From a virus, in IMG/VR virus record IMGVR_UViG_3300046512_000378, positions 1 through 37,652 of that record: a stretch of DNA of 37,652 nucleotides, one strand, 5' to 3'. The notes under the pieces are model-generated. The model was not told the origin of the DNA. It searched no databases and was given only the letters and a program-made list of their open reading frames with translations. Position numbers and translations under genes: made by a program. Below, one piece after another: positions 21,427-36,173 of the stretch (position 1 is its first letter; every line of letters begins with the position of its first letter).

Positions 21427-23154
21427 TTATCGTCCGCCCCCCATTCTCAAAATACCGCGTGAAGCATAAATGGAGTGACCACGCGCGGCTGGGTTTCGGC
21501 TCATCAGCATCACGGCGTTGAAGGCTGCCACAAGCGGGTCAATCTTAGCCTTGCCAGCGATCTGCTTGGTAATAAGCACTGCATTAGCGCGCTGTTCGCA
21601 TTTGGCGTTGCCGACGCACCAGGACATTAGCGCCTGCCCGCCGTGCATCATGGTCCCGTCTTTCAGTTTCCGCTCCGTACCCCAGATGGCGCCGGAGAGG
21701 CGGAAGCCTTGGGGGACAGCAAGCATCTGCTCGCCGGTAAAACCACGACTGGAAAGTTCATCGACAAGGGTGGTGACGCCCTGTGGATCAAGCCCGATCG
21801 CCGCCTGCTCGGGGAACAGCCCTTTATTCTTCACCGCTTCCAGAAGGTCGGCAATCTCCACAAGATCCTGCGTCGGATTCTCGCATTTGGTCAGCGTACC
21901 CTCTTTTATGAAGTCGGCGAGGCGGGTGACGATATCCTTGCGCCGCTCAAAAACATCGAGCTGCGCCCATGCCCGGCAATATAGAAGCCACTGTTTGGTG
22001 TCGCGATGGCGCCCCAGCAGCGCCAGGCCAAGGAGATCGTCCAAACCACCGCCATCGATACCGGCTACAGCCACCTCGATGATCTGAAGGAACTGTTCAA
22101 GCGTGCCGTCCCAGAGTTCGACTGGAGCTTCTGCCGATGCCCAGTAAAGAGCTCCCACCCAGGCATCATGCCGCAAGCCAACGCCGATCTCGACGTTCAG
22201 ATGCTTCGCATAAAAGACCTGTTTGGTGCCATCCTCGGCGTTTTCGACCTGTCGAAATTCGCTTTCCAGCCACTTCTGGCTGACCGACCGGCCGAGGTTG
22301 GGATTGGTGATATAGAAATTGGCTGGGTCCAGATGTTCGTCCGACGCGATCATCTCGTCTGGAAACTCATACAGGACCGGCAGGAATTCTTGATCTTCGA
22401 TCAGCCCGTCACGGACGTCCCGCGCATAGGCTAGCATTTCCTTGAACACGCCAGCGGGCGGTTCGTCCGACTGTGTCGTGAGATAGAGGGTGTAACCCTC
22501 CGGCCGTGACACCTGCCCGCCCGATGCTTCGCGGAACATCGCATCGGCCGTCGCTTTCTTGCCAAAGAGCCATAGCTCATCGACAAGCACGCGGCTGGCC
22601 TTCTTGCCTGACACCGTCGCGCTATCCGCCGCAACAACCTTAAGCGTGGCCTTCGTCACCCTGTTGGTGATGAGTCTGACATGCTCCTGGATATGCAGGA
22701 GATCGTTAAGCTCCTCATCGTTGCGGATCATGTCACAGGCAGGTTTGAAGCTGTTGCCTGCTACCTCGATCGTGGGCGCAAGGATCAGGTTTTCGTCCGA
22801 CGGCCTCCATCCGCAGATCAATTCTGTAAGCATGATGCCAGCCGCGATGGTCGATTTCGTGTTCTTCTTGGATACGAGCAACAGACCCTTGCGGATCATC
22901 TGTTCCCCAGTGTCGGGATTATAAGCGCCGAATATGGCGGCGGCGAAATCGAGTAGCCACTCGTCGGCCGATTCCCCGATCGTCCAATAGTCTTCCGTTG
23001 CTGGGTTGATGCCCAGGTCAACAATCTTGAGCGAGGTGAAGACCGCCATTTTCGCCTCGGCAGAGGCTGGAAACAACGGTGAGAATGATATCAGCGACCG
23101 GCGGTCCCTGATGCGGCGTTTCCAATCAAGGCAGGCCGTCGTCCAGTTGATCAC
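21427..23154 (-). CDS. Terminase large subunit
   Basis: 575 residues, the packaging ATPase and nuclease. A Walker A-like segment reads VSKKNTKST (94-102), with the Lys/Ser/Thr of HK97-type terminases. Walker B with the catalytic Glu is RVLVDE (188-193). The RNase H-type nuclease domain starts around AGIDGGGLDDLLG (D367). It is one base from the small subunit stop. The protein is of the HK97/TerL_ATPase family used by cos-type phages with an adjacent HNH nuclease. Confidence 0.95.
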   Translation of the reverse strand: MINWTTACLDWKRRIRDRRSLISFSPLFPASAEAKMAVFTSLKIVDLGINPATEDYWTIGESADEWLLDFAAAIFGAYNPDTGEQMIRKGLLLVSKKNTKSTIAAGIMLTELICGWRPSDENLILAPTIEVAGNSFKPACDMIRNDEELNDLLHIQEHVRLITNRVTKATLKVVAADSATVSGKKASRVLVDELWLFGKKATADAMFREASGGQVSRPEGYTLYLTTQSDEPPAGVFKEMLAYARDVRDGLIEDQEFLPVLYEFPDEMIASDEHLDPANFYITNPNLGRSVSQKWLESEFRQVENAEDGTKQVFYAKHLNVEIGVGLRHDAWVGALYWASAEAPVELWDGTLEQFLQIIEVAVAGIDGGGLDDLLGLALLGRHRDTKQWLLYCRAWAQLDVFERRKDIVTRLADFIKEGTLTKCENPTQDLVEIADLLEAVKNKGLFPEQAAIGLDPQGVTTLVDELSSRGFTGEQMLAVPQGFRLSGAIWGTERKLKDGTMMHGGQALMSWCVGNAKCEQRANAVLITKQIAGKAKIDPLVAAFNAVMLMSRNPAARGHSIYASRGILRMGGGR

Positions 23155-23155
23155 C

Positions 23156-23716
23156 CTATTTCACTGCCTTGAGGTGCGGCGCGCCCATGGCGCCGAAACG
23201 GCGACTGCCGCCCACGGCGTTGGCGCGATCCTGCGCCGCTGCTTTTTTTCCCTGCGGCGCGGACGCCTCGTTGATCGTCTTCAGCGCAAGCGCCAAGGTC
23301 TTCAACGTGTTCGCTCGCCCCGGCAGGCTCACCGCCTTCATCAAAGCATCGCGCTTCGAATCGTCGTCGTCGCCGTCGGTCGCCTCGATGATGAGGTCTT
23401 CCAGTTCGCCCCGGCGGCTGGTGACGACGTCCAGCTCATCAAGCATGCGGGCAATCAGCGACCGGCCGTCATCTGCGATCACCGCAGGATCGGCTGGCTT
23501 TTCCGGGTCGCGTGGCGGGGGAGGCGGTGGAGATCGCTCAGGTTCGCGGCGGTTCGCAGTGCGAACCATTCTTTCCCATTTTTCAGCCTTGGCCCGTTTC
23601 CGAATAGCGGTGTCCGAAATCTCGTGTCGGTCAGCTATTTCTCGGATTGAATCTTCGCCAGCCAAGTATTCGAGTTCGATGCGCGGCCAGTCGATAGTAG
23701 AAATTCGTTTCGCCAT
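23156..23716 (-). CDS. Terminase small subunit-like HTH protein
   Basis: 186 residues. The N-terminus contains a helix-turn-helix (residues about 8-48, LEYLAGEDSIREIADRHEISDTAIRKRAKAEKW split over that range), the DNA-recognition element used to find the packaging site. A Pro-rich linker (PPPPPPR at 64-70) leads to a helical C-terminal half likely used for oligomerisation and contact with the large subunit. Its position immediately before the large terminase gene supports the call. Confidence 0.85.
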   Translation of the reverse strand: MAKRISTIDWPRIELEYLAGEDSIREIADRHEISDTAIRKRAKAEKWERMVRTANRREPERSPPPPPPRDPEKPADPAVIADDGRSLIARMLDELDVVTSRRGELEDLIIEATDGDDDDSKRDALMKAVSLPGRANTLKTLALALKTINEASAPQGKKAAAQDRANAVGGSRRFGAMGAPHLKAVK

Positions 23717-23852: not shown

Positions 23853-24215
23853 TCAGTACCCTGCGGCGCCTTGCTCTGCCCGCTGCTTGGGTCCGTCATG
23901 GCACGGCTTGCATAGGGTCTGGAGGTTGCCCTCATCCCAGAACAAGGATGGACTGCCGTTGTGCCTGCGCTTGTGGTCTGCAACGAGGCGCGATGTGTTG
24001 CCCTCGACCCTTCCGCATCCAGGCCACTGACATGTGAAACCATCTCGCTTGAAGATGGCTATGCGCAGCTTGCGCCACCGCTCAGTGCTGTACCACTTGC
24101 GCCATGGCGCATAGGCGATGCGCGTCGCAGCCTCACTCTTCGGCGACTGTTGAAGGAACCCGACGGTTGGCTTCAATGAAACAAGGTGGCTGCTGATCGC
24201 TTTGAGCTTCCCCAT
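23853..24215 (-). CDS. HNH endonuclease
   Basis: 120 residues from the ATG at 24215, with GGAG 7 bases upstream. The HNH core is intact: VADHKRRH (D80, H81), N97 and the C-terminal CKPCHD (His106). Cys pairs C62/C67 and C102/C105 are placed to bind structural zinc. In HK97-type phages this small nuclease works with the large terminase in cos cleavage and particle morphogenesis. Here it is the first gene after the putative late promoter and directly precedes the terminase genes. Confidence 0.92.
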   Translation of the reverse strand: MGKLKAISSHLVSLKPTVGFLQQSPKSEAATRIAYAPWRKWYSTERWRKLRIAIFKRDGFTCQWPGCGRVEGNTSRLVADHKRRHNGSPSLFWDEGNLQTLCKPCHDGPKQRAEQGAAGY

Positions 24216-24341
24216 AGGTTCGCTCCGATTATCTGATATGCGTCGCACAACCCCGAAAGAACATTCGGTGGATCGGCGACCGCAGTGGCTAGGCCACACC
24301 TCGGCAAATGCCTATGCCGCAATGTGCGGCGAAGTCTTGGA
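24216..24341 (-). promoter_or_regulatory. Structured leader before the late genes
   Basis: The transcript from the promoter at 24342-24369 would start near 24335 and cross three stem-loops before the HNH start. The first is GCCGCA/TGCGGC (24316-24330) with a 3-nt loop, within about 20 bases of the start. The second is GTGGC/GCCAC (24285-24297). The third is CCGAA/TTCGG (24253-24268). The arrangement suggests an antitermination or pausing leader. None has the T-run of an intrinsic terminator. Confidence 0.5.
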
Positions 24342-24369
24342 TGTATATGATATGTTCCGATTGCGTCAA
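24342..24369 (-). promoter_or_regulatory. Candidate late promoter
   Basis: On the minus strand TTGACG (24364-24369) is followed after 16 bases by TATACA (24342-24347), a good sigma70-type pair. The -35 overlaps the stop codon of the NusG-like gene, and the promoter points into HNH, terminase and the structural genes. No other late promoter of this quality was seen upstream of the terminases. Confidence 0.6.
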
Positions 24370-24938
24370 GCCGCTGATAGCAGGCTGCGCGCATTTACCT
24401 TCACTGTTGGATGCGTACCGAACAGGCTGAACCGCACGAACGCATAGTTACCCTTCACTTCTGAGATCTCGCCGATCAATCCCTCGAACCCAGACCCTGC
24501 GCCTAACCGCACTGCCTCGCCGGGCTTGAAGATGCGCACATGCTCGATGGGCCGACCCTGGCGCTCAGCAAGGCGCAGCTTATCGAGGTCGCGATCGCTG
24601 ACGGCTGGGTAGATATGTCCATGACGGAACACGCGAAAGAACGGGCGGCCGCGCATCACCATGCGCCGCTGTTCCTTATCCCACACCTGATAGACCGGCG
24701 CGGGCGCGTGAGCCATTGCCAGCACATCGGGCAGGCTATGGTACCGGGCGAATGCGAAGGTTGGCATCAGCGGCACGGTTTGCTCTACACGATCGCGCGT
24801 CTTGCCCATGCGCTTTACCGCGATACCGATCGGCGTCCACGCCTCAATGCCCGCGTCGTTGAGCGCGGACGCGAGCGCCAGCGTTCCCGCGCTGGACGTC
24901 TGCACGATACACCAATCCGTTGCCCTATACCCGCTCAT
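24366..24938 (-). CDS. NusG/RfaH-like transcription factor (late regulator?)
   Basis: 190 residues from the ATG at 24938, with GGAG 9 bases upstream; the longer frame to 25031 is Arg/Lys-rich and unlikely. The NGN domain runs from about 8 to 80: WCIVQT at the first strand and VPLMPTFAF (55-63), the counterpart of the NusG PVFPGYVFV motif. A charged linker follows. A KOW domain at 137-188 reads FKPGEAVRLGAGSGFEGLIGEI. NusG paralogues such as RfaH and LoaP bind RNA polymerase at specific leader sequences and suppress pausing and termination. As the last gene of the early operon, just before the candidate late promoter, it holds the place of lambda Q. Confidence 0.85.
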   Translation of the reverse strand: MSGYRATDWCIVQTSSAGTLALASALNDAGIEAWTPIGIAVKRMGKTRDRVEQTVPLMPTFAFARYHSLPDVLAMAHAPAPVYQVWDKEQRRMVMRGRPFFRVFRHGHIYPAVSDRDLDKLRLAERQGRPIEHVRIFKPGEAVRLGAGSGFEGLIGEISEVKGNYAFVRFSLFGTHPTVKVNARSLLSAA

Positions 24939-35366: not shown

Positions 35367-36173
35367 GTGGACTTTGAGATTGAGACGTTCGTCACGCATA
35401 GCCTTCGCGCGGAGGGCTTCGACGCCAGTGAGGACGGCACTGGTCGCAGCACTCCACTCGTGCCGGTCGCGTTCAACAGCCGGGAGGATCTGACCCATAG
35501 CGAGGAAGTTTTCGGGTCGCTCGGATCATCTAGCCCGCAAGCCCAGGCGATCGCCTATGCGGTCCATGCCGATACTGTCGGCCGCACTGGTGAGGCTAAG
35601 AGCATGTCGCCTGACGCTGAGGGGCGCATGCGCCTGCGCGACGCGGGCATGGGTATCAGCGAGGACGCATCGTTCAGCCTGACCACGGGCCAGCCGCACG
35701 TCGTTGCCTTCGCTCAGAACCAGCGCAATGAAGTGCGCACCATGGGTATCGCTGGCGCGCTCGCTGCCGAACCGGGAATGAAGCAACAGACGTATCTGGC
35801 GTTCGACCTGAGGGGTAGGGAGGGTGGAGCGCAGTTCGAAGGGCCGCACGACACCGCCAACATCCGCGCGGCGTCTGGCGGCTCCAGCCGCAGCTACGTC
35901 GCCAGCACAGGCGTTCGCCGCCTCATGCCGGTCGAGTGCGAGCGACTCCAGGGTTTCCCCGACCACTTCACCGCCATTCCATACCGTTCGCGGACCGTCG
36001 AGGTGGACGAAGCCCAGCTGGCGGCTGTCGAGGGCAGGGCGGTCTGGCAAGATGGCGATAGGCTCGTGACCGACTGTATGGCGGACGGCCCGCGCTACAA
36101 GGCACTGGGCAATTCCATGCCGGTCAACGTGATCCGCCACTACCTCCAGCGCGTGGAAAGGCAGGCAGCATGA
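35367..36173 (+). CDS. C5-cytosine DNA methyltransferase, C-terminal part
   Basis: 268 residues if started at GTG 35367, but this frame is open back over the G7 tract and reads GNTSGPIDRAACLTAKGQRV before that GTG, so it is the continuation of the upstream gene, not a separate one. It carries a variable target-recognition region and then motif IX (RRLMPVECERLQGFPDHF) and motif X (KALGNSMPVNVIRHYL). Without motifs I-VIII this part would not be catalytic. The stop overlaps the PP-loop gene as ATGA. Confidence 0.82.
   Translation: MDFEIETFVTHSLRAEGFDASEDGTGRSTPLVPVAFNSREDLTHSEEVFGSLGSSSPQAQAIAYAVHADTVGRTGEAKSMSPDAEGRMRLRDAGMGISEDASFSLTTGQPHVVAFAQNQRNEVRTMGIAGALAAEPGMKQQTYLAFDLRGREGGAQFEGPHDTANIRAASGGSSRSYVASTGVRRLMPVECERLQGFPDHFTAIPYRSRTVEVDEAQLAAVEGRAVWQDGDRLVTDCMADGPRYKALGNSMPVNVIRHYLQRVERQAA

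Follow-up and report, generated by a model that had tools for sequence, protein, structure and literature searches.

The window analyzed in this study, i.e., the whole stretch of 37,652 bases making up one virus record, carries a NusG-like gene at positions 24366-24938 of the minus strand, the 190-amino acid product of which is the proposed late antiterminator. Downstream of it on the same strand, the first gene after the leader codes for an HNH endonuclease (23853-24215; profile matches), and is followed by the genes for the small terminase subunit (23156-23716; phrog_1206, E 2e-39), the large terminase subunit (21427-23154; PF20441 and PF03354 of Pfam, and phrog_9), portal, protease, capsid, tape measure and tail fiber. 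The proposed target operon, with the large terminase gene close to its beginning, comprises packaging and structural genes, is about 24 kb long and ends around position 165 on the minus strand. The initial annotation, made from this DNA alone, had a promoter pointing into some 24 kb of terminase and structural genes, and the gene content of the downstream minus strand indeed matches that description. On the upstream side are replication-type genes, including DnaT-like and VRR-nuclease genes (Pfam), so that it is reasonable to regard the NusG-like gene as the last early gene, as had been claimed. The plus-strand genes of the window include an ORF (35367-36173) with matches to DNA-methyltransferase PHROGs.

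The NusG-like protein and its relatives

The protein is a member of the NusG/Spt5 family, with NGN and KOW domains and the NusG fold, and its earlier identification as such was upheld. In the PHROG profiles, it matched phrog_6386, a 'transcription antiterminator' (E 5e-24), and among PDB sequences it showed a weak match to E. coli NusG in the KOW region. Its AlphaFold model (pLDDT 76) retrieved NusG, RfaH and Spt5 as the top Foldseek matches in the PDB, and the C-terminal domain was modeled as a beta KOW domain (7 sequences, one predicted state), the point of comparison being the alpha-helical C-terminal domain of autoinhibited RfaH. Pfam returned no match for the 190-residue protein itself; its relatives, which align with it from M1 on, gave sub-threshold KOW and NusG matches. 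It is to be noted that phrog_6386 was rejected as a specific marker, since it matched host NusG in 389 of 401 genomes (Sphingomonadaceae) and is in effect a generic NusG profile. By score, the nearest named subfamily was UpxY (NF033644; E 1.5e-8), whose antiterminators serve capsule operons, and from which the window protein is set apart by a score of 34.8 bits against the curated cut-off of 100.

By profile searches, relatives were found on well over 100 viral contigs, mostly of uncultured phages; the wider profile yielded 101 viral contigs with relatives, of which 80 were kept, and about 45 further contigs came from a second profile. The closest relatives, designated here by locus number, share 78% (L002/L053), 77% (L054) and 57% (L004 and L005) protein identity with the window protein. 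A search of named phage and plasmid records with the window protein gave no match, and neither did four family proteins against 50,697 named phage records, which makes the system invisible in cultured collections. A class-wide genome search for the family, in which no more than 8 candidates per genome were scored, produced a single match, which is of little weight given this limit. One genome (G060) contained three loci with NusG paralogs (L059, L060, L061), possibly representing three prophages.

The initial annotation had asked whether such relatives always precede the terminase operon. A gene for the large terminase subunit was indeed found downstream in 77 of 92 loci, at a median distance of 1.7 kb from the NusG stop codon, and these terminases were of two unrelated types, namely TerL_ATPase/TerL_nuclease (50 loci) and GpA (27 loci); of the 15 loci lacking one, 6 have less than 2 kb of sequence remaining. 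Linkage alone cannot say that the NusG-like protein acts on the leader RNA.

A promoter-like pair at the end of the gene

A -35-like TTGACG (24364-24369, minus strand) overlaps the TGA stop codon of the NusG-like gene, and a -10-like region follows at 24340-24347. The initial annotation had read these as a TTGACG-N16-TATACA promoter, and this sequence is present exactly, at 24369-24342 of the minus strand. Taken alone, the pair is weak evidence: position -7 carries a base other than T, no site was listed here by a standard sigma-70 scan, and sites matching the same pattern with up to two mismatches appear in about half of the shuffled sequences. In the register of the family, the window reads TTGACG-N18-TACATC, with the -10-like hexamer at 24345-24340, and in the clade of the window, where the element is found at the stop codon, the spacer to the TA has 18 bases.

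Comparison across the family allowed a clearer view. TTGAC-N18-TA (once N17) recurs in the relatives of the window, and, more broadly, a TTGRCN-N17/18-TA pair of fixed spacing marks the end of the NusG-like gene across the family, the family logo, CTT(G/T)(G/C)C-N17-GTAnA, having sigma-70 spacing. Outside the clade of the window, the pair sits within the last codons of the gene in most members, where it leaves a mark on codon usage. The codon before a conserved W/F column has T in its third position in 67 of the 70 cases in which it is fourfold, as opposed to 13.7% elsewhere in these genes; eight codons further on, all 46 valines are encoded by GTA (7.6% elsewhere), and the isoleucine and leucine codons at that position also end in TA. 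The p-value of this wobble bias (5e-54) ignores relatedness and is descriptive only. In three loci (L104, L112, L118), the element contains the end of the coding sequence, and yet GTATAA or GTATAT is kept at the same spacing; in two others (L055, L072), the gene already ends about 30 nt upstream, and yet the -35-like part is kept (in L055 as TTGACGGCGAGTC, which L056 also has). The pattern TTGAC-N7-GAACRTWTCRNRTAC occurs in only 4 of 2.9 million viral contigs, all of which carry a NusG-like gene. These comparisons demonstrate that the promoter-like pair is constrained across the family, and the codon and spacing patterns place the selection at the DNA level. Readings of the motif as a sigma-54 or EcfG promoter were dropped, as the consensus was not met by eye. 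Two members (L006 and L011) keep the promoter-like block with different leaders; after their NusG stop codon they have GTTTGACACAC and GAAAAAYGCCC in common, possibly an alternative type of leader.

The leader RNA and its covariation

The initial annotation had also predicted three stem-loops at the start of the transcript, and these were found at 24330-24316, 24297-24285 and 24268-24253, all on the minus strand, the first stem beginning only about 3-6 nt past the putative start near 24333-24335. The first hairpin, HP1 (GCCGCA-CAT-TGCGGC; 24316-24330), is supported by folding, by a covariance-model match and by covariation of homologous HP1 hairpins elsewhere. It is followed by stem P2 (24275-24312; GGC/GCC and GCCG/CGGU; fold and covariance model), enclosing the inner hairpin GTGGC-CTA-GCCAC (24297-24285), and by HP3 (24253-24268; CCGAA-TGTTCT-TTCGG), which keeps its position in the relatives with different sequences. 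The minimum free energy of the leader in the window is -46.4 kcal/mol (z -2.5). The 3' part of the leader contains a conserved motif, TGTGCGACGCA (24239-24249, minus), found by alignment and folding, which can pair with TGCGGTCGC (24284-24276, minus), a segment that is also used by P2. In L004, both sides of this pairing change together (GUUGC/GCAAC), and the alternative pairing may constitute a two-state switch. A short conserved motif likewise ends the leader after HP3 in most members, including L082, L106, L137 and L086, in the forms GTCCTACGGCATGG, GTCCGAAGGCTACC, GTTAGAGACCTGCC and CTGCTACCGCAATGG, and in six members (L073, L094, L117, L131, L134, L139) tRNA-like sequences directly follow the leader.

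The evidence for conservation of the leader was obtained at several levels of distance. Among the closest relatives (L002/L053, L054, L004, L005), the leader remains alignable though the following genes differ, and both elements show compensatory change, HP1 from GCCGCA/TGCGGC to GCTGCA/TGCAGC, and P2 in L004 and L005. A structure-blind MAFFT alignment analyzed by RNAalifold gave 15 pairs, 8 of them with double changes (30 cells versus 9 in shuffled alignments, and 1-5 in slid controls); the MAFFT alignment of clade II was too gapped, and RNAalifold returned no structure for it. A covariance model, R1, built from HP1 and P2 of eight members, was applied to 33 gene-bearing loci and gave 30 matches, of which 29 follow the gene. 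In the alignment of these matches, which was fitted to R1 and therefore leans towards the model, 11 of 16 pairs had double changes, with 62 cells versus 15 in shuffled alignments and 97.2% paired positions. A second model, R2, was built from these 30 matches, of which only L056 belongs to the wider group of the window. On 45 new gene-bearing contigs, i.e., out of sample, R2 found 24 matches at E<=0.3, 14 of them at E<1e-6, and all but one of the 24 coincided with the end of the gene or followed it; on 80 unrelated viral loci (650 kb) with no relatives of the gene, it found none at E<=0.1. Applied unfiltered to the whole window, R2 gave its best match at 24332-24273 of the minus strand (17.6 bits, E 0.086; next best 13.4), exactly at the hairpin proposed earlier, the modest score being due to the divergence of the window's clade. 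For the core of the leader, a short DNA pattern was also tried; being too loose, it gave chance matches only and served as a negative control.

Thus, the leader covaries and is specific in position, and the conserved hairpin sought in the leaders of the relatives exists; the base-pair changes point to selection at the RNA level on HP1 and P2. Homologs lacking the leader, which the initial annotation had named as contrary evidence, were mostly not encountered, the exceptions being four loci (L057, L066, L070, L071) without a recognizable one. The placement relative to the gene varies. In many members (L007, L082, L120 and others), HP1 overlaps the NusG stop codon, with the stop in the loop, as a result of which nearly all the proteins end in Ala-Ala whatever their length; in L183, the NusG reading frame runs through HP1, and in L186 the leader is found 603 nt downstream, together with its promoter-like pair.

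Searches for known RNA elements were negative. In Rfam, the window gave chance-level matches only and six relatives gave tRNAs only, and the leader is apparently a new RNA family, judging from these sequences. An ops-like sequence, with two mismatches allowed, was absent near the leader, the window as a whole containing 4 such sites as against 5.7 expected by chance. As the candidate recruitment element, the 24316-24330 hairpin is backed by covariation and by the R2 match, whereas its earlier description as ops-like is not borne out. The loops in the window are CAU in HP1 and CUA in the inner hairpin, neither of which is a UNCG-type hairpin as in LoaP.

A proposed switch for the late genes

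The arrangement suggests the following order of events. The last early gene would yield the NusG-like protein, and a sigma-70-like promoter, situated where the same gene ends, would fire into the leader, which would fold almost at once into HP1 and P2. The NusG paralog would then be loaded onto RNA polymerase at or just after the leader, and the loaded polymerase, being resistant to pausing and termination, would transcribe the whole late operon. The termination resisted would most likely be Rho-dependent polarity; a scan for intrinsic terminators downstream of the leader gave zero in test and control regions alike and is uninformative, and with no such terminator found nearby, Rho would be the likelier target. 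Transcription start, protein-leader binding and antitermination are what we infer here, and we consider it probable that the locus switches on the late genes by means of a NusG paralog, which is recruited at the leader and directs processive antitermination of late transcription. With somewhat less assurance, although still on the favorable side, we extend this to a widespread and hitherto undescribed class of phage late switches. In such a switch, the late transcript would begin with a structured RNA of a new family, via which the paralog, encoded just upstream, would be loaded, and the promoter would lie within, or directly next to, the last part of the paralog's own coding sequence.

Several known systems resemble parts of this design. 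The put RNA of phage HK022 is a structured phage leader linked to antitermination, which acts on polymerase and is not known to require a phage protein; the leader described here is likewise a structured phage leader, but differs from put in its proposed use of a phage protein and in having no Rfam match. Lambda Q is encoded just upstream of its promoter, and a similar layout is proposed for the window, where the promoter-like pair, conserved at the DNA level, is situated as a putative promoter between the NusG-like gene and the late operon. Q, AlpA and GafZ, however, are not known to be NusG paralogs, and the DNA elements via which they load are situated between -35 and -10. What the proposed switch shares with Q at PR', and with AlpA and GafZ, is an antiterminator of a late or phage-like operon that is loaded near its promoter, for which these proteins are precedents (PMC11150451). 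Of the earlier suggestion of a Q-like late switch, the architecture (NusG paralog, promoter-like pair, structured leader and terminase operon) is upheld family-wide, the suggested replacement of a Q gene by the paralog being conjectural. The window protein had no Q-family match in Pfam, PHROGs or NCBIfam. RfaH is a specialized NusG paralog that needs ops and serves long operons (PMC7593976), and resembles the present system in these respects and in having a leader site; ops, however, is a short non-template DNA element, whereas the family here conserves an RNA fold and the leader of the window has no ops. In Bacillus, LoaP requires a leader RNA hairpin (dfn/mln) for antitermination of a long operon (PMC12691694), so that a NusG paralog and an RNA hairpin in the 5' leader of a long operon are common to both; LoaP differs in using one UNCG hairpin and in serving biosynthesis operons, as opposed to the larger HP1 and P2 with other loops, found in phages and beside the paralog's own gene. 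In kind, the conserved multi-part RNA structure has more in common with LoaP/dfn or put RNA than with ops.

Other explanations of the same features were weighed. The promoter and leader may be real, with the leader acting as a cis element for host factors or for RNA stability or translation, and the NusG-like protein acting elsewhere, e.g., broadly on phage transcription. The position of the leader at the extreme 5' end, like that of stabilizing hairpins, would suit such a role, as would L208, in which the leader is 921 nt downstream of the gene, behind an inserted ORF; contact between the protein and the leader is, moreover, our deduction. This explanation nonetheless appears unlikely, because the leader occurs only beside a NusG-like gene, as judged from the absence of model matches in 650 kb of unrelated viral DNA, and because the significant matches in gene-bearing contigs are almost all directly downstream of the gene. 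We hold it to be more improbable still that the leader does not belong to the late operon but autoregulates the NusG-like gene or the 3' end of its mRNA, or represents a processed small RNA. The frequent spanning of the stop codon by HP1 would agree with this; however, HP1 is clear of the stop codon in the clade of the window and several others, in most members HP1 comes after a promoter-like pair, and terminase operons follow.

That the promoter and hairpins of the window are chance features of a GC-rich gap is hardly credible. The promoter match on its own is unremarkable and the folding z-score modest, but L054, L002, L004 and L005 have kept the leader in alignable form, and a model derived almost wholly from other clades ranked the exact site first in the window.

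The general kind of mechanism, i.e., specialized NusG antitermination, is already known, and the RNA family is apparently new. No description of phage NusG paralogs as late regulators was found in the literature searched, which is not proof of novelty as most subscription journals were outside its coverage. The way in which specialized NusG paralogs locate their operons has been worked out in few cases, and the recruitment of operon-encoded ones has been stated to be unknown (PMC7593976). In the family described here, recruitment is directly testable, because the gene, the promoter-like element and, in most cases, a covarying RNA share one compact cassette, with well over 100 members. A possible means of switching on the late genes is also put forward for phages whose late operon has no recognized Q-like gene beside it. 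Overall, a NusG copy, a promoter-like site and a folded leader placed before the late genes look like a new way of switching these genes on in phages.
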